Source: a virus. From it: a DNA stretch of 33,967 nt. The notes beneath the pieces were generated by a model. It did not search any database. It worked only from the letters and a program-made list of their open reading frames with translations, and was not told where the DNA came from. The stretch's first letter is position 1. Every line of letters starts with the position of its first letter. The DNA lies in IMG/VR virus record IMGVR_UViG_3300045135_001378, positions 1-33,967 of that record; one strand, 5' to 3'. Below, one piece after another: positions 344-7,773 of this stretch. A program made the position numbers and the translations under genes.

Positions 344-1131
344 TATGCTTTTCTTGCTCTTGAAGCCGCTTCATAAGAAGCAGAGAATTTTCTAGGTGCT
401 TTAGATTTAGGTGCTGAGTAACTTATAGTCTTACTTCCTCCACCATGTATTGCTGCACCTTTGTCTTGTGATGAAGTTGGATTCGCATTAGCAGGTGCTT
501 TTCTACCACCTGTTAATTTAAGTTCTAAATTTCTTTGTGTAATATTTGGATCGTTTTTTATTAAATTCATTGCTTTTCTATCCATAGCTTGTTTTTCTTG
601 TAACATGTTTAATCTATTTGTAAGATTAGTTGTGTCTTTTCCAGCAGCTTCTAATCTTTTCAGACCAACATTTCGTATAGTGTCAATTCTTTTTTGGTAT
701 GCATTATCTAAACCTAATGTAGGAGGTTCACCAAATTGACCACCCGTTAATGTATAAAGACCGCCTCCAGAAACAGGATTGTATCCTTGCATCATTGGAT
801 CTTGTCCTAAACCTGCATAGTAATCTCTTGTGGCAGTAACGACAGGATCTTGTTGAGGTAACATAGCACCCAACATGTTAGCCATCATAGTTCCAGGTAA
901 CATTTGTGGTAAACCAAATTTAGATGCTATTTTACTTTGAATAAAACTTTTTGCAGCGTCTTTCATGCTAGGAGCATTAGACACTAAGTTATTGTACATT
1001 CCACTTATACCAGTGTTAGAGGTATTGCTTAAATCTGGTCTTTGATACATTGAGGCGAATTGATCGTAGCTGTATTTATTTTGATAATTTGGATTATCTA
1101 CATACATTTGTAAAATTTGTTCTTGATCCAT
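343..1131 (-). CDS. Hypothetical virion-associated protein, 262 residues
   Basis: The N-terminus (MDQEQILQMYVDNPNYQNKY) is polar and Tyr/Asn-rich. A Met-rich, weakly hydrophobic segment follows (about residues 70-95, with GTMMANMLGAML), then a Gly/Pro linker, a predicted helical region (145-200, QKRIDTIRNVGLKRLEAAGK) and a Lys/Arg-rich tail (220-262). Helix plus basic tail would fit an internal or ejected virion protein, but no catalytic motif is visible. Its ATG overlaps the stop of the 724-residue tail protein by one base (TAATG), so the two are probably translationally coupled. I do not recognise a named family. Confidence 0.7.
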   Translation of the reverse strand: MDQEQILQMYVDNPNYQNKYSYDQFASMYQRPDLSNTSNTGISGMYNNLVSNAPSMKDAAKSFIQSKIASKFGLPQMLPGTMMANMLGAMLPQQDPVVTATRDYYAGLGQDPMMQGYNPVSGGGLYTLTGGQFGEPPTLGLDNAYQKRIDTIRNVGLKRLEAAGKDTTNLTNRLNMLQEKQAMDRKAMNLIKNDPNITQRNLELKLTGGRKAPANANPTSSQDKGAAIHGGGSKTISYSAPKSKAPRKFSASYEAASRARKA

Positions 1132-3305
1132 TATCTCATACCATCTGGTTGTGTATCAGCTCTAAATGTACCATATCTCCAAGTTTGGTTTACTGACGTA
1201 TTTTCTACTTTTAAACTAGCAAATCTTGCTCTAGCTCTTGTGTCTACTTTATTAGTTGTGGAGTCTATTGTAAAGGGTCCCAGTGGAGATGTTCTTTCTG
1301 TGTCCGTTGGATAGTCTTTAAGAAGAATTGATATTTTAGCATCTCCTGTTAATACTTTAAAATCTGGAACAAATCTTCTCATACTCATAAAAAATTGACC
1401 ATTACCTTCAACATCTAAATCAAAGTCTCCAGATTGAATAAATGATGTTATAGCTGTAGATACTCCAAGATTATCGACTTCATTAGTTCCGATTTCATGC
1501 GCATAATATGTGGATGCACCATTTCCACTTGTAACACCATTAATGGTTGGAAATGTAGGTGTTCCCGATCCGTTAAATTTTGTTGCATAAGGGTTATCAA
1601 ATAAAGTAGCGTCAAAGTATGAAGTCCTTGCTAATGTTCCTGTAGTCCAAGTGTTTTCATTATAATTATAAGTCACTACTCTGTTTATAGCGGTAGTTCC
1701 TGATTTTGGATAAAACCAACTTATTTCCATAAACAAAGTGTTAAGTCCCGCATATACTAATTCACCAGAAGCATAATTAATTCCAAGACCATCCCCCTCA
1801 GTAGTAAAAACAAAATCTTCAACTAAACAAGGTAAAGCTTTTACTGTACCATCAAACACAAAAAAACCACCAGCTTGACCCATCCAATATATATTACCGT
1901 TTACATACTTAATTGCTTTTTGACCCAATGCTCCACAGTTAGACCCAACCTGCCTTATTGAAAAAGTAAACGGAGGACCTACAAACTGCATCATATATGC
2001 AGAGGTATCTGTCAAAATAAATATATAATCTTTAGCTTTAACAGCGCCCACAATCTTTGTTCCAGAGTCTAGTCTAAAAGTACCAGCGGTATTAATAGAT
2101 GTAGGTTGATAGTCACTAGTGCTTTCTTGATCAGAAAATCTTATAAAAAGTTTATCTTGTGTTGAAGTATCTCCAACTGTTGTTTCTGTACCAAGCATTA
2201 TTAAATGTCTATCTCTTTCAGACACAATAGACATCACAGATCGAGTAGGTGCACCAGATAAAATTGTGGCTCTGGTTGATAGAGCATTTACGTTATTATG
2301 AATTGGTTGCCATCCAAAAGATTCACCATTTTTAACTGTTGCAATTAATTGTTCTCCGAAATTATCTAATGACCAGTTTCCAGGATCAAGTGTTAAATTA
2401 GAAGTTGTAGTTGCAATACCCCATCCAACAAAATCAGTTGCATCTAATACTGTCGAGTTATCTGCATGTGCAGATCTATTTGAACCAGACACAGCTCTAG
2501 TTATTCCTAAAAAATTTGTAGCGTTTGTAGATGTGTAAGAAATTAATTCTGAACCTACCAAAATAGTTCCCGATGACGGAAACCCTGAAGTTGAGTCGAC
2601 TGTTACTTGAGTAGATGGAGACCCTCCAGTTCCAAATGCATCATCATTTAAAGCACCATCAAGTATAGTTGAAGATGCTCCAGAAACTGTTCCACCAAAT
2701 AAACCTGTGCCCCATCCAAAACCAAAAGTTTGATTTAAAGGTCCTGCAGTTATGTATGGGTTAATTGTTGCTGATCCGGTGGCCGTTGTTGTTCCTGATG
2801 CAGCCGTTGCGAATTGAATTGTAAATGTATTTGTAGTTGCAGACAACACTTCAAAAGGATTAGCTTCTAGCTGTGCTGCTGTGTATCCAGATCCTGTAGG
2901 CGGTGTAACTGATGTGAATGTAAATAAATCACCAGTTTCTAAACCATGAGCTGCTTTGTTTACAGTTATTGTTTGTGGTGTCCCTGTAGCTGAAATAGTG
3001 AATGTTGCTCCAGTGACAGCTGCACCTAAAGGTGTGATGTCGTAAAAAGTACCACTGTAATAAACAATAAGTGCTTTGTGAGTACCAATAGCAGCATAAG
3101 CTCTACCATCTAAATCAGACCAAACGTGTTGCTCTCTAGCTGCTCCAACAAGTGTATCACCAGTAATTTGTTCCCAACCACCAATTTTCTCTGGTAATCC
3201 ATATCTAAATCTTACATTATCACCATCAGTCCACTGTCCTTCAGCTCCTGTTTCTGTGATTTGTTTGTTAAACCCTGGTCTTATATTTACACTTGTTAAT
3301 GGCAT
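1131..3305 (-). CDS. Tail nozzle / tail tubular protein B-like virion protein
   Basis: The 724-residue protein opens with the pattern PLTSVNIRPGFNKQITETGA followed by GQWTDGDNVRFRYGLPEKIGGW, a start I associate with large beta-rich tail proteins of marine short-tailed phages (the T7 gp12 / P22 gp10 nozzle role is inferred). Two inserted modules are visible: residues about 119-180 carry the HGLETGDLF pattern of phage beta-sandwich inserts, and about 230-290 a STSGFPSSGTILVG...ELISY module also common in tail proteins. The C-terminal half has repeated short beta-strand blocks. There is no Shine-Dalgarno sequence before the ATG; instead a sigma70-like promoter ends five bases upstream, so the transcript may be leaderless. 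The gene is followed by virion proteins with one-base overlaps. Confidence 0.78.
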   Translation of the reverse strand: MPLTSVNIRPGFNKQITETGAEGQWTDGDNVRFRYGLPEKIGGWEQITGDTLVGAAREQHVWSDLDGRAYAAIGTHKALIVYYSGTFYDITPLGAAVTGATFTISATGTPQTITVNKAAHGLETGDLFTFTSVTPPTGSGYTAAQLEANPFEVLSATTNTFTIQFATAASGTTTATGSATINPYITAGPLNQTFGFGWGTGLFGGTVSGASSTILDGALNDDAFGTGGSPSTQVTVDSTSGFPSSGTILVGSELISYTSTNATNFLGITRAVSGSNRSAHADNSTVLDATDFVGWGIATTTSNLTLDPGNWSLDNFGEQLIATVKNGESFGWQPIHNNVNALSTRATILSGAPTRSVMSIVSERDRHLIMLGTETTVGDTSTQDKLFIRFSDQESTSDYQPTSINTAGTFRLDSGTKIVGAVKAKDYIFILTDTSAYMMQFVGPPFTFSIRQVGSNCGALGQKAIKYVNGNIYWMGQAGGFFVFDGTVKALPCLVEDFVFTTEGDGLGINYASGELVYAGLNTLFMEISWFYPKSGTTAINRVVTYNYNENTWTTGTLARTSYFDATLFDNPYATKFNGSGTPTFPTINGVTSGNGASTYYAHEIGTNEVDNLGVSTAITSFIQSGDFDLDVEGNGQFFMSMRRFVPDFKVLTGDAKISILLKDYPTDTERTSPLGPFTIDSTTNKVDTRARARFASLKVENTSVNQTWRYGTFRADTQPDGMR

Positions 3306-3310
3306 AGCGC

Positions 3311-3339
3311 ATTATAACACGATCAAGGAGCTTTGTTAA
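3311..3339 (-). promoter_or_regulatory. Sigma70-type promoter giving a near-leaderless mRNA
   Basis: On the minus strand TTAACA (3339-3334), a 17-base spacer and a perfect TATAAT (3316-3311) are followed by five bases (GCGCT) and then the ATG at 3305. The predicted start site therefore falls on or next to the start codon, and no ribosome-binding sequence is present. It overlaps the end of the preceding small gene. Box quality and spacing are seen directly; activity is inferred and chance matches are common in AT-rich DNA. Confidence 0.5.
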
Positions 3340-3556
3340 CATCGGGGTCTTCAGTATCCTCACCATAAGTAACTAAATTTTTAGTTTTTTCATCAAACCT
3401 CAACTGCCACTCAGCCACCATTTTTACCAATATGTTACCAAAATTTTTAAATGACGTAGAGTCTAGAAATAAATTTTTCTTTTCTTGTATAATCTTTATC
3501 TCTTTTTCTGAAAATTCTATGTCACAACTTCCATCAGCATATTGTTTAAACCTCAT
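3323..3556 (-). CDS. Small hypothetical protein, 77 residues
   Basis: A small soluble protein (MRFKQYADGSCDIEFSEKEI) with a short beta-hairpin-like start, a helical middle (KNFGNILVKMVAEWQLRF) and an acidic end (GEDTEDPDVNK). The sequence AAAGAGG lies five bases before the ATG. It overlaps the end of the upstream oxygenase gene by eleven bases and its own 3' end carries the promoter for the tail gene. No family recognised; small proteins of this kind often sit at the ends of accessory cassettes in marine phages. Function unknown. Confidence 0.65.
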   Translation of the reverse strand: MRFKQYADGSCDIEFSEKEIKIIQEKKNLFLDSTSFKNFGNILVKMVAEWQLRFDEKTKNLVTYGEDTEDPDVNKAP

Positions 3557-4196
3557 AAAAACCTCTTTCCTTTAATTGTTGTATTTTATTGTCTGATAAA
3601 GTTAAAAAACAATTTATAGAATATCTACTACCTTTTGTAATTTTTTCTGTGCCGTGTATCCATATTGGTTCTGCTGGGAAAAACATTGTATCACCTTTAC
3701 CTAAGACAACTTTATGTCTGCCATCAAAAAATCTAAATTCACCACCCTCGTAATCATCATTTAAATTTATCGTTAATGAACCTCTAATTTGTTTAGTAAT
3801 ATCTGAGTGATCTTTTATTTGAGTTCCTTCTTCGTATTTTAATATTCTTATATTATCAGTTTGACTAATATGCATATCATTAAAAGTAGGACAAATTTCT
3901 TTTTGAATATACTCAACATAAGTTTTTAAACAATAAGATACAATCTCTACAGCTTTAGCAAAAACAGGTTGAAGTATTTCATTTTTGATATGATGTTCTG
4001 ATAAACTTAAACACTTATAGTTATCCCACACAATTTTTTTTTCATCATACTTATAGCTTTGTTCCTTAGTTTGTAAATTTGGAAATTTATCAAACGCCCA
4101 CTTAAAGCGTTCACACCAATAACTCGAAACAAATTTTTTCTGTATGTGTATTAAATCTGTAATTTTAAAATTATATTCGTTCGGGGAGTTTTGCAT
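3546..4196 (-). CDS. 2-oxoglutarate/Fe(II)-dependent oxygenase (prolyl 4-hydroxylase-like)
   Basis: With the start at 4196 the protein has 216 residues. The double-stranded beta-helix motifs are clear: H130-x-D132 (IKDHSD), a GGEFRFFDG strand turn at 151-159, the distal His181 (WIHGTEKI) and Arg191 (GSRYSIN) for 2-oxoglutarate. The family oxidises C-H bonds with O2, Fe(II) and 2-oxoglutarate; the substrate here is unknown. I chose ATG 4196 because GGAAG stands eight bases before it; upstream ATGs at 4229 and 4259 lack a ribosome-binding site and would deepen the overlap with the preceding gene (26 bases as annotated). It is the last of three consecutive oxygenase genes. Close relatives act on proteins, but small-molecule substrates are possible. 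Confidence 0.85.
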   Translation of the reverse strand: MQNSPNEYNFKITDLIHIQKKFVSSYWCERFKWAFDKFPNLQTKEQSYKYDEKKIVWDNYKCLSLSEHHIKNEILQPVFAKAVEIVSYCLKTYVEYIQKEICPTFNDMHISQTDNIRILKYEEGTQIKDHSDITKQIRGSLTINLNDDYEGGEFRFFDGRHKVVLGKGDTMFFPAEPIWIHGTEKITKGSRYSINCFLTLSDNKIQQLKERGFYEV

Positions 4197-4743
4197 TTTC
4201 TTTACTTCCAGTTGTATCTCTTTGATCATTCTTGTAATCTTTGTAAGGACCGTTAGCATCTACATAATGTAAAAAAATTTGAGAATGCCAATCACCTTGA
4301 AATTCTTCTCGCCAATGTTCAACCTCACACCCGAGATATAAAACAGCATCACCTGGTTGCATCTCTAATGCTGTGCCTTCTATGTAAATAGGCCAAGGTG
4401 TTTTATCTGAACCAACCATCACTGTGCATGATATCTCACAAGAGGGTCTATCTTTATGTTTTTTTAGATCTGCATATTTTGTATACATTCTCCAAAAACT
4501 GTAAGTTGGGTTTAATTTAAGATTAGTTTCTTCTTCCATTTTTTTTCTTTTGCTTATTAACAATGCATCAGTTGCTGGGTTGCCATAGTTCATTGTGTCC
4601 ATAGTGATTGATTGTTGGGTATCAAATGACGAATCGTTTCTTTGATGAAATAAAATTGTAAAATGTTTTAATAATTCTGTTTCTTCTTTTGCTAAAAAGT
4701 TTTTTACAAGTTTGTATTTTAAATCTCTTATACTGCCCAACAT
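4171..4743 (-). CDS. 2-oxoglutarate/Fe(II)-dependent oxygenase family protein
   Basis: The 190-residue protein carries H96-x-D98 within LKKHKDRPSCEIS, a hydrophobic core strand (TVMVGSDKTPWPIYIEG), a turn LEMQPGDAVLYLG typical of the region before the distal ligand, and His143 in EVEHWREEF. The 2-oxoglutarate Arg expected about ten residues later is not obvious: the region reads DWHSQIFLHYV, with Gln155, so cosubstrate binding may use Arg145 or differ. It is the middle of three overlapping oxygenase genes (16 bases shared with the upstream gene, 26 with the downstream). The protein differs from its neighbours in sequence, so this is not a recent duplication. Substrate unknown. Confidence 0.8.
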   Translation of the reverse strand: MLGSIRDLKYKLVKNFLAKEETELLKHFTILFHQRNDSSFDTQQSITMDTMNYGNPATDALLISKRKKMEEETNLKLNPTYSFWRMYTKYADLKKHKDRPSCEISCTVMVGSDKTPWPIYIEGTALEMQPGDAVLYLGCEVEHWREEFQGDWHSQIFLHYVDANGPYKDYKNDQRDTTGSKENAKLPERI

Positions 4744-5303
4744 ACTGCTGAATACCTTATACCTTTCTCTACTGGTGTTACTCTATGAGGAAACATAAAA
4801 TTTGAAGGCCAAACAATCATTCTATTTTTCTTAGGTTCAATTTCTAAACTTTCATCTTTTGCAGGAAAAGCAAATTGTAATTTACCACCTTCGTAACCAT
4901 CATTTAAATAAAATATACAACTTATTTTTCTGTTTAAATAAAGTCCATGATCTACATGCCAAGTGTAGTGACCTCCAGGTTCATATTTTAATATTTGTGA
5001 ACCTTCAAGTCTTGATATTGTTTGCGAAGGTAATTTATTTTCTTCGATATATGAACCAATACATTCTTTAAAAATTTTATTAAAAACATGAGCCCAATGA
5101 ATTTCAGTCATTGATTGAGAATCGAATTGCAAATGTTTCACAAGTGTGTTTCTAGTTTCTTTTTCAATAAATCCTTTATCTTTTTTTTCATTCAATATTT
5201 CAGCATATTCAAAATTTAAGTCTTTGACCCATTTTAAAATAACTTCTAAAGTTTCATTGTTAATAGTGTTATCTATTATTTTTATACAGTCTTTTATTTC
5301 CAT
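4728..5303 (-). CDS. PKHD-type 2-oxoglutarate/Fe(II) hydroxylase
   Basis: A complete 191-residue PKHD/prolyl-4-hydroxylase-type domain. ILKYEPGGHYTWHVDHG gives His116 and Asp118; CIFYLNDGYEGGKLQF is the hallmark strand-turn-strand; FPHRV gives distal His173 and KGIRYSAVCW gives Arg183. Residues 1-100 are the usual N-terminal helical half. It is the first of three tandem oxygenases and overlaps the upstream DUF6065-like gene by ten bases. No strong ribosome-binding sequence precedes the ATG, consistent with coupling. The family hydroxylates protein side chains or small molecules; I cannot tell the substrate from sequence. Confidence 0.9.
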   Translation of the reverse strand: MEIKDCIKIIDNTINNETLEVILKWVKDLNFEYAEILNEKKDKGFIEKETRNTLVKHLQFDSQSMTEIHWAHVFNKIFKECIGSYIEENKLPSQTISRLEGSQILKYEPGGHYTWHVDHGLYLNRKISCIFYLNDGYEGGKLQFAFPAKDESLEIEPKKNRMIVWPSNFMFPHRVTPVEKGIRYSAVCWAV

Positions 5304-6037
5304 GATTTTTTAGACCAAAAAACTGTTTTGTATGCATGCATTAATTTTTGTTTTAATTTAAAACCAGTCCATCTTGGATCTTCTTTTGCAACTTGTACTT
5401 TCATTTTCCAAGCATCTCTTTTAAAAGGAATTACTTGTGCAACAGGTGTGTCCACTTTTATAGTTGTAATCATCTCTGGATACTTATCACCATTAAGTAT
5501 TATTGGAAAATTTATATGTAAGTTATATTTATCTGTATCAACTATACCTGGAATAATTTGAAATCTGTCATCTGGATTATTCATAGGTGGTAAAAACAAA
5601 CAAGAGTAACCTGGTGGTGTTTGTATTAGCCAAGGGTTCATTATTTTATAAAAAGGTAAATCTTTGTTTTTTTTTAAGTGAGGGCATTCACCGACTTGAA
5701 AAGGTGCATGTGTTTCTCTATTGTCAAAATTTAAATTAAGACCTTGATCTATAACCCATTGCCCTAAAGATTCATAACCCCATTTAACAAAACTATCTTT
5801 ATTACCATCATTATTAGTTACATTATGCTGAATTAGCATATCTTGTGGCATTTTTATTAAATAACCTGATGTTAAAGAATCTAAAATAGGCATACAACCT
5901 TTCATGGTAGGTATACCAACATTATGTTTTAAATCTTTAAACCATTTGGGTATATGTAACTTTATTGGTTCTGGAAGTGCAACGTTTTGATCTAAATACT
6001 CTTTTGGCGCTGAAAAAATTATTTCCTTTTCAAACAT
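5294..6037 (-). CDS. DUF6065-like protein, 247 residues
   Basis: The pattern PWLIQTPPGYS (135-145), GIVDTDKYNLHINFP (164-178) and TPVAQVIPFKRDAWK (197-211) matches what I remember of the phage family DUF6065; the family name is from memory and not verified. The fold looks beta-rich, with possible metal or substrate residues (His175, Asp167, Asp169), but no known catalytic set. It is the first gene of a block that continues with three 2OG oxygenases, overlapping the next gene by ten bases, which suggests a shared modification pathway or shared substrate. The N-terminus (MFEKEIIFSAPKEYL) has no signal peptide. Confidence 0.7.
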   Translation of the reverse strand: MFEKEIIFSAPKEYLDQNVALPEPIKLHIPKWFKDLKHNVGIPTMKGCMPILDSLTSGYLIKMPQDMLIQHNVTNNDGNKDSFVKWGYESLGQWVIDQGLNLNFDNRETHAPFQVGECPHLKKNKDLPFYKIMNPWLIQTPPGYSCLFLPPMNNPDDRFQIIPGIVDTDKYNLHINFPIILNGDKYPEMITTIKVDTPVAQVIPFKRDAWKMKVQVAKEDPRWTGFKLKQKLMHAYKTVFWSKKSWK

Positions 6038-6053
6038 CCATGTCTTTTACTAC

Positions 6054-6512
6054 TTATAGACAAAGCTGTAAAGGACTAACATAATCTTGACTTATGCTTT
6101 CTAGGTATTGTTCAAATGTTTTATCAGTAGGCCAAGTTATTGATGAAGTATCCCAACCATTTAAAAAATTTAAATAAGTTTGTGTTTCAGTTCTAAGATA
6201 TGTTTTTCCATCATCAATCCAAGCTTTACAAGTATCAATGTGTGATTGCTTAATAGCTTCCATCATATTTTTAGCAAGTTCTTGAGTTTCATTTGCTATA
6301 ACATCAGATCTAGTACTAAGTGTATCTCCATCATTACCGTCAAGTTGAGTAGTACCATTTTTAATATTATTAAAAACTGTATCGGAAATTTCTACAACTC
6401 TTATATCACTGCTTACTAAATTTTCAGCAGTAGACCAATCTGAAGTAGATACAATACCTACTACTGATGAATCAGAACCAGATGCAGAGTTTGAAAAAAG
6501 TGCTTTTGCCAT
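6054..6512 (-). CDS. Hypothetical tail-region protein, 152 residues
   Basis: The protein begins MAKALFSNSASGSDSSVVGI, a Ser-rich polar start, followed by a mixed region and a long helix (about 75-115, ETQELAKNMMEAIKQSHIDT) and a Trp-containing end (GWDTSSITWPTDK). AGGAG sits six bases before the ATG. It follows the glycine-rich tail fibre gene by one base, where tail-fibre chaperones or small tail proteins are often encoded; that role is only an inference from position. No named family recognised. Confidence 0.65.
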   Translation of the reverse strand: MAKALFSNSASGSDSSVVGIVSTSDWSTAENLVSSDIRVVEISDTVFNNIKNGTTQLDGNDGDTLSTRSDVIANETQELAKNMMEAIKQSHIDTCKAWIDDGKTYLRTETQTYLNFLNGWDTSSITWPTDKTFEQYLESISQDYVSPLQLCL

Positions 6513-6513
6513 A

Positions 6514-7773
6514 TTACGCTCCTGTATTTTCTAAAATAAATACTCTTCCAGATTGACCATTGTTTCCACCAGACATATTATTTCCTGGCATTGAAGTTCC
6601 ACCATTACCGCCATTACCAAATGATGTAGCAACAAGATAGCTTCTAAAATTATTAGTTAAATCCATTTTTGCACCTGGAGCGGTTCCAGCATTTCCGTTT
6701 GGTCCAGCTTGGTTGTATTGATGATATCCTGCTCCGTTACCAGCGTTAGCCGTTCCAACATTTGTTAACGTAGTTGCAGTTCCTGCATTACCTGCATTAC
6801 CGTTTCCTGGATTAGGGTTTCCACTACCTTTGTTACCTCCTGATCCAACTGTGTAAGGGTAACTAACAGGGGAACTTATTGGAGATCCAAAAAAACCAAA
6901 TCCACCTTTTCCTCCAGTACCGCCAGGACAACATTGTGAACCTCCAGCGCCTCCGCCTCCGCCTCCCCATAAAAGGGCTGCAACATAACCTGCGTTAGCA
7001 TTTGAACTATAGGTTCCAGGACTTGATGCATATAATTTTGGTTCGAATCCACCACCACCTGCACTTCCATCCGAAGCTGCAGTCAATCTTCCTTGAGCAT
7101 CAACAGTGATAGATGCAGAAGTGTAAGATCCAGCAGTTACCGCAGTGTTAGCAAGTTGATCAGCACCAACAGCATCATCTGCAATCATTGCAGATTGCAC
7201 TTGTACTTCACTAATCGCACCTGCTGTCGTAGCACCTAAGACTCTATTGTCTGTTGATGTGTGTTGCATTTTTGCATAAGTCACTTGATCGTCACCGATT
7301 TTATCTGTAGTCACGGCACCATCTGCGATTTGAGCCGCAGCAACTGTGCCACCTAAAGTGTCTAAAGATACTTCGTTTAAATTAGTTCCGTCTGAGTAAG
7401 CTGCATAAATTTTTGCTGCATCAATTGTAAAACCTGTTCCACTTGCAGTTTTAATTGTTAAATTTGTAGGAGCTGTAATTGCTGTACAGTCAAAAATATA
7501 AAATTTTTCAATACTGTCTGGTATCGTAACTATAGTTGCTCCTGTTAAAGTAATTGTTGCGAATTTAATAATCATGTTACGTGCATTTGATAATGCAGCG
7601 TTTGACATTACTAAAGCAGTTGTATCCGAATCTGTAATTGTAACTGATTCGTATCCTGCTACAGCTTGTTGAATTAGATTTAAATTTGTGTTTGTTTTAT
7701 CACCCCATGTACCAGCGTTTTCACCGGTTGCCATTAGTTCTAGTTTAAGGTCACTTGAGTATGTTGATGCCAT
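6514..7773 (-). CDS. Tail fibre protein with glycine-rich tip
   Basis: The 419-residue protein has three parts. Residues 1-130 (MASTYSSDLKLELMATGENA then GTWGDKTNTNLNLI) form a phage tail-fibre head with a beta-rich body. Residues 145-235 contain repeats of the type AAQIADGAVTTDKIGDDQV and SAMIADDAVGADQLANTAVT, which in fibres form trimeric shaft repeats. From about 236 to the end the sequence is extremely Gly/Asn-rich (LLWGGGGGGAGGS, GNPNPGNGNAGNAG), like the polyglycine adhesin domains of T4-type gp38. A receptor-binding role at the cell surface is inferred. AGGAG stands ten bases before the ATG. Tight glycine loops are typically exchanged by recombination. Confidence 0.82.
   Translation of the reverse strand: MASTYSSDLKLELMATGENAGTWGDKTNTNLNLIQQAVAGYESVTITDSDTTALVMSNAALSNARNMIIKFATITLTGATIVTIPDSIEKFYIFDCTAITAPTNLTIKTASGTGFTIDAAKIYAAYSDGTNLNEVSLDTLGGTVAAAQIADGAVTTDKIGDDQVTYAKMQHTSTDNRVLGATTAGAISEVQVQSAMIADDAVGADQLANTAVTAGSYTSASITVDAQGRLTAASDGSAGGGGFEPKLYASSPGTYSSNANAGYVAALLWGGGGGGAGGSQCCPGGTGGKGGFGFFGSPISSPVSYPYTVGSGGNKGSGNPNPGNGNAGNAGTATTLTNVGTANAGNGAGYHQYNQAGPNGNAGTAPGAKMDLTNNFRSYLVATSFGNGGNGGTSMPGNNMSGGNNGQSGRVFILENTGA

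Follow-up and report, generated by a model that had tools for sequence, protein, structure and literature searches.

Why should a phage keep a row of overlapping oxygenase genes among the genes for its virion? The question is raised by a 33,967-base virus record (IMG/VR IMGVR_UViG_3300045135_001378), the whole of which is the window analysed here, in which a gene for a DUF6065-like protein is followed by genes for three proteins termed oxygenases A, B and C. The original prediction had placed these four genes inside the virion block and proposed them as a modification cassette. The location holds, with tail-tip genes (6054-7773) on one side and a virion gene (1131-3305) on the other, and the modification idea has been strengthened and is the best reading, with its unit changed to tip, DUF6065-like protein, A and B, and with C optional. 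By this reading, to which we give a probability of roughly 55%, the locus forms a cassette for modifying the tail tip, which would be oxidised by A and B, and here also by C, probably through prolyl hydroxylation by these 2-oxoglutarate (2OG)-Fe(II)-type enzymes. The cassette genes and the flanking tip and nozzle genes all lie on the minus strand and are read in the following order:

6514..7773, minus strand: tail-fibre tip, the proposed substrate, with a conserved N-terminal part and a Gly/Pro-rich C-terminal Gly_rich_2 domain
6676..6678, minus strand: codon of Pro366 in 'TAPGAK', the candidate modified proline, picked out by column conservation
6054..6512, minus strand: 152-amino-acid (aa) protein between tip and cassette, matching no Pfam family in a profile search; a similar-sized protein stands there in most relatives
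5294..6037, minus strand: DUF6065-like protein, 247 aa (phrog_7084, E 1.3e-37), with a predicted dUTPase-like beta-clip
4728..5303, minus strand: oxygenase A, 191 aa, prolyl-4-hydroxylase-like, 2OG-Fe(II) type (PF13640, 78.0 bits; Pfam cut-off 27)
4171..4743, minus strand: oxygenase B, 190 aa, annotated 'ferrochelatase' (phrog_2954), with a predicted prolyl-hydroxylase-type fold
3546..4196, minus strand (reading frame opens at 4259): oxygenase C, 216 aa from a conserved start (PF13640, 39.7 bits, same cut-off)
3323..3556, minus strand: conserved 77-aa open reading frame (ORF), in the same slot in most A/B loci, with no Pfam match and no known family
1131..3305, minus strand: virion protein forming the cassette boundary (phrog_3287, E 1e-86), called 'nozzle', a label carried over from the original prediction

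In favour of the tip-modification reading, tip type and oxygenase set switch together. In 130 deduplicated tip-to-nozzle slots from pelagiphage-like contigs, pooled over all search anchors, Gly-rich tips are accompanied by A and B in 103 of 104 cases, the 'KVSG' Gly-rich tip by a 224-aa 2OG oxygenase in 16 of 17, and the collar tip by a 177-aa 2OG oxygenase in 5 of 6. Two slots, L161 (Gly) and L155 (collar), were rejected as true exceptions to this rule, their oxygenase homologues lying on the opposite strand. The A/B share among the 130 slots is inflated because part of the sample was gathered with a B or DUF6065 anchor; the anchors do not bias the tip-type pairing in the same manner. A 2OG ORF was detected in 127 of the slots (no oxygenase was found in those of L200 and L202, and none by the profiles used in that of L188), and 259 of the 274 2OG ORFs of these loci fall inside the slot, which makes up 30% of the bases. 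On a tree of the nozzle protein the Gly label requires no fewer than 7 changes; across 7 independent pairs A/B follows the label 6.6 times and opposes it 0 times (median p 0.016). Such joint replacement of tip and enzyme set among relatives suggests that the structures with which these phages attach to their hosts are chemically modified by the phages themselves.

The main rival holds that the tip-to-nozzle stretch is a recombination hot spot, that the oxygenases are passengers serving a different purpose, and that co-switching reflects linkage only. Because recombination at conserved flanks moves neighbouring tip and enzymes as a block, co-switching could indeed arise without function, and the slot is hypervariable, gathers unrelated genes and carries opposite-strand oxygenases in L155, L161 and the phage HTVC027P. 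The near-constant presence of a 2OG enzyme is, however, unlike random cargo, A/B is kept with fused and separate Gly tips alike, and the same tip/oxygenase pairing is found in myoviruses with different flanks. Block exchange is judged an unlikely explanation.

Cyanomyoviruses and other pelagiphages share the tip/oxygenase neighbourhood. In the myovirus Mosig EXVC030M a Gly_rich_2 protein and a 136-aa protein precede a row of 2OG genes that includes a B homologue, and in HTVC033P oxygenases, with a B homologue, come after a Gly_rich_2 protein. HTVC023P has a proline-rich Gly tip beside a 2OG-2OG-B array and a proline-poor Gly tip beside its own 224-aa oxygenase; HTVC027P is of the collar type. 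Eleven complete records, chosen for oxygenases or DUF6065 and not for Gly tips, and including cyanophages that are mutually related, contain a B homologue in 10 cases, a Gly_rich_2 domain in 9 and both in 8, and in all 8 of these genomes the two lie within 7.6 kb of each other (combined p 8e-4). A scan with cyanophage B returned 8 loci, mostly near-copies of S-SM1, and was not used.

What is conserved among relatives is not quite the unit first proposed. The scans for relatives kept the 80 best matches each, so the sample consists of close kin. All 19 IMG/VR contigs with a DUF6065-like gene show the order tip, small protein, DUF6065-like protein, A and B as far as the contig limits allow; one extra ORF stands between A and B in L020-L023, and several of the DUF6065-anchored contigs have further genes ahead of the nozzle. 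A B-anchored scan gave the same gene order, with the DUF6065-like gene absent from some loci. In 84 deduplicated slots gathered with two cassette-independent anchors, the nozzle and the tip N-terminus, A and B occur together in 58, B occurs alone in one and both are absent from the rest; the DUF6065-like protein accompanies A and B in 41 of the 58. The 77-aa ORF is kept in most relatives, and a C gene directly behind B is confined to the window's clade, its closest relatives. The conserved unit is tip, protein of about 150 aa, DUF6065-like protein, A, B, 77-aa ORF and nozzle. Of the four-gene unit of the original prediction, the DUF6065-like gene, A and B stand, recurring in order between tip and nozzle in dozens of contigs rather than independently; the unit as such is rejected, since C is clade-limited and the tip and the 77-aa ORF also belong.

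The overlaps on which that prediction had leaned are real: 10 nt between the DUF6065-like gene and A, 16 nt between A and B, and 26 nt between B and C, the last figure presupposing that C starts at the internal ATG at 4196 (codon checked), a start shared at the equivalent position by the close relatives L008, L010, L012 and L014. C and the 77-aa ORF overlap by a further 11 nt. Because 19 of the 42 consecutive gene pairs in the window overlap, however, overlap by itself means little, and it was discarded as the sign of a special operon. Nor was evidence found for the suggested three-step oxidation of one substrate; slots carry from 0 to 4 detected oxygenases.

The enzymes themselves point to prolyl-hydroxylase chemistry. 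Against Protein Data Bank (PDB) sequences A matches prolyl 4-hydroxylase (P4H; E 4.5e-7) and EGLN1/PHD2 (E 1.1e-6); its iron ligands H116, D118 and H173 are present in all 117 relatives, and its distal 2OG-binding Arg183 in 111 of them, with Lys in 4. In C the HxD...H ligands and the 2OG Arg are all kept (11/11). B is named ferrochelatase in PHROGs (phrog_2954) and in phage records and also matches phrog_3531; significant Pfam matches are lacking, neither Pfam nor NCBIfam yields a ferrochelatase hit, and a PDB sequence search with its profile gave chance matches only. Its model (pLDDT 94.1) is a double-stranded beta-helix whose matches are P4H, PHD2 and other 2OG enzymes at Z of about 15-17, including P. 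putida P4H (4j25_G; Foldseek E 1.7e-8, VIA Z 16.2) and PHD2 (Foldseek E 5.1e-8; 8z31, VIA Z 16.3), and the predicted iron ligands H96, D98 and H143 are present in 123 of 123 relatives. B as a ferrochelatase is rejected on the profiles and on the predicted oxygenase-type fold; the label stems from PHROGs and deposited annotation. The earlier remark that the four proteins are not simple duplicates is borne out, A and C belonging to PF13640, B matching only the two PHROGs and the DUF6065-like protein being distinct. A single 362-aa protein of cyanophage ACG-2014f unites a B homologue with a C homologue.

These results bear on auxiliary metabolism, in which the oxygenases would consume 2-oxoglutarate or oxidise a host metabolite and B would act as a ferrochelatase on iron or haem. 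This is the published reading: 2OG/'ferrochelatase' pairs of pelagiphages are treated as auxiliary metabolic genes (PMC9599517; PMC11561400) and cyanophage 2OG genes are tied to nitrogen/2OG signalling (PMC3037559). Adjacency of the same pair in HTVC023P-type phages, the window's own group, is thus already published (PMC9599517), where it is read as auxiliary metabolism, whereas B is here a predicted oxygenase-fold protein. In Mosig, moreover, genes for haem oxygenase and bilin reductase adjoin the oxygenases. Metabolism would not, however, predict genes placed among those of the virion and varying with tip type, and the missing ferrochelatase match and prolyl-hydroxylase-type model of B also speak against it. 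We regard this explanation as unlikely, and as slightly less probable than block exchange.

If the tip is the substrate, its composition hints at the residue. The Gly-rich stretch starts at about residue 269 and matches Gly_rich_2 (PF21722, 30.7 bits; Pfam cut-off 24.3), and the tip gene lies upstream of A/B in nearly all relatives. Proline makes up 6.9% of Gly domains linked to A/B and 1.8% of KVSG tips, glycine content being similar; in the first tip ORF of these loci, the N-terminal 200 residues contain 1.3%. One proline, Pro366 in the window, belongs to an APGA-like motif and recurs in 67 of the 78 non-redundant A/B-linked tips with a residue there, within a Gly-rich domain that is otherwise variable around it. 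Because A and B resemble prolyl hydroxylases, we infer that peptidyl-proline hydroxylation is the likeliest reaction.

In the proposed mechanism, the Gly/Pro-rich domain of the tip (6514-7773) would be oxidised post-translationally by A and B, plus C in the window's clade, with hydroxylation of prolines such as the conserved one of the APGA motif. The DUF6065-like protein might bind or position the tip; if trimeric, as dUTPases are, it would match a trimeric fibre. In related phages the hydroxyls could serve as handles for glycosyl-, sulfo- or carbamoyl-transferases; alternatively, halogenation or radical-SAM chemistry could affect other residues. The outcome would be a chemically varied receptor-binding surface. 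Proteins encoded in the relatives' slots include a DXD glycosyltransferase, sulfotransferases, a carbamoyltransferase and a tryptophan-halogenase-like protein, as well as an HD-2OG fusion, a cupin, a kinase and a cytidylyltransferase, companions that would fit the decoration of macromolecules better than central metabolism.

The part assigned to the DUF6065-like protein is a guess drawn from its model, namely that of a trimeric tip adaptor; the scaffold or substrate binder of the original prediction is likewise no more than a possibility. Its similarity to DUF6065 (PF19541) is local, covering residues 134-211 only, and at 19.4 bits falls under the Pfam cut-off of 26.6. The model (pLDDT 91.3) is most like dUTPase 2y8c_B (Z 10.1 over 119 residues, root-mean-square deviation 2.4), and dUTPases make up the whole of the top 50 structural entries (Z 8.8-10.1, about 110-129 residues); the Foldseek E is no better than 0.015, and the fold likeness is predicted and moderate. 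The protein differs from dUTPases in that motif II (PRSG) was not found in its family, in an alignment made by eye, and at the position of the catalytic Asp of motif III the family has D, E or H. A working dUTPase is therefore unsupported. In the Devosia contig L265 (3709-5726) a DUF6065-like gene directly follows a Gly-rich tail-fibre gene with a 4-nt overlap, and such genes lie near tail genes in L267, L268 and L271; in a Tepidisphaeraceae contig the gene stands alone.

Several points besides linkage weigh against tip modification. The evidence for modification is genomic association rather than chemistry, and prolyl-hydroxylase-like folds act on many substrates. The proline contrast, for which a rank test gives p 4.5e-11 with related sequences treated as independent, is effectively a comparison of two phage groups. 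In the alignment of B with its 123 relatives the canonical 2OG-binding Arg or Lys after the distal His was not found: positions 152, 153 and 155 are mostly Trp/Tyr, His and Gln, and Arg145 is invariant, yet lies just two residues past the distal His. Because the usual Arg is absent, binding of the cosubstrate by B is uncertain, and its oxygenase activity is likely rather than established. S-T4 and ACG-2014f carry a B homologue and gave no Gly_rich_2 match. DUF6065 relatives adjoin thymidylate synthase in haloviruses (L001, 5860-6732; L002, 5860-6729) and lie near ribonucleotide reductase in S-RIM4, in each case with no tip alongside; the DUF6065 family may thus serve more than a single role.

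These last neighbourhoods, the predicted dUTPase-like fold and the DNA repair suggested for cyanophage 2OG homologues next to uvsX/uvsY (PMC2984593) all favour a role in nucleic acid metabolism. The oxygenases would then hydroxylate or repair bases in DNA, and the DUF6065-like protein would act on nucleotides as a member of the dUTPase superfamily. The lack of PRSG, the Glu or His in place of the motif III Asp in some members, best matches of A and B to prolyl hydroxylases and other 2OG enzymes rather than to AlkB or TET, and the place of the genes among virion genes make this highly improbable.

With bacterial P4H (4j25, 4iw3) and PHD2/EGLN1 the window enzymes have in common the predicted fold of B, the sequence similarity of A and the HxD...H ligands; they differ in their low identity (about 12-18%), in the canonical Arg missing from B and in forming a phage-encoded array beside a tail tip. 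Gly_rich_2 tail-tip proteins share the Gly-rich hypervariable distal tip, of which the glycine-rich adhesin gp38 of phage S16 is an example; such tips are not known to be modified, and here they are Pro-rich beside A/B. Phages also encode glycosylation of their own virion proteins, whereas oxidation with swappable enzyme sets is proposed here. EGLN-like structures in marine phages are noted by Phold (PMC12774648). Cyanomyoviruses have the same families (2OG oxygenases, the T4-GC615 'ferrochetalase domain', prnA and carbamoyltransferase genes; PMC3037559), which often lie close to genes for tail fibre and neck, and earlier readings of these enzymes were nitrogen signalling, DNA repair or unknown. 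No report of oxygenase-mediated tip modification was found in the literature searched, outside which most subscription journals lie, and as far as that literature shows the linkage of oxygenases to tip type is new.

The matter reaches beyond this locus, as 2OG oxygenases and 'ferrochelatases' are common so-called auxiliary metabolic genes of marine phages used in ecological inference. If tips are modified, these oxygenase genes would be host-recognition genes, the ferrochelatase label would be wrong for the B family, and the host range of phages would depend in part on chemistry that cannot be read from sequence alone. A wider generalisation, put forward tentatively and at somewhat less than even odds, is that marine phages possess a modular, swappable system that hydroxylates the Gly-rich tips of tail fibres and decorates them further by glycosylation, sulfation, carbamoylation, halogenation and radical-SAM chemistry, with an enzyme set for each tip type, and that many 2OG/'ferrochelatase' auxiliary metabolic genes are virion-maturation enzymes that diversify the receptor-binding surface.

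Some slots are of note for their contents. That of L177 (3632-8979) holds an unidentified tip, a GT9-like protein, a sulfotransferase, an APS-kinase/oxygenase fusion, a TylF methyltransferase and oxygenases. The slot of L188 (4892-10560), directly behind a tail-fibre gene, combines a pair of Ig/invasin-like proteins with oxygenase-like genes and with a radical-SAM/SPASM protein whose closest resemblance is to maturases of peptides or sulfatases. Tryptophan-halogenase-like proteins occupy the slot in L068 (4971-6131) and L097-L102, and two halogenases come after Gly_rich_2 proteins in S-RIM44. Carbamoyltransferase genes of the NodU/CmcH type are found in L063 (5812-7467), L018 and L049, and in L046 (7761-8657) a DUF6817/HD-like domain is fused to a 2OG oxygenase, with relatives in several slots.

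The window phage is, to judge from its nozzle protein, a relative of HTVC023P-type pelagiphages, because the best cultured relatives of that protein include the homologues in the Pelagibacter phage HTVC023P (61% identity over 78% of the length) and in HTVC027P (53% identity). Homologues of the nozzle protein bear the names stabilization or needle-head protein in their annotation, and against PDB sequences the window protein has a single, weak match. At the DNA level two short matches are the only ones among cultured phages; other genes of the window match terminase, portal and major head protein. A Gly-rich tip, DUF6065-like protein, A, B-like protein and nozzle are also carried by contig NZMJ01000157.1 (L264) of a Maricaulis metagenome-assembled genome, probably a phage contig binned with a bacterium.

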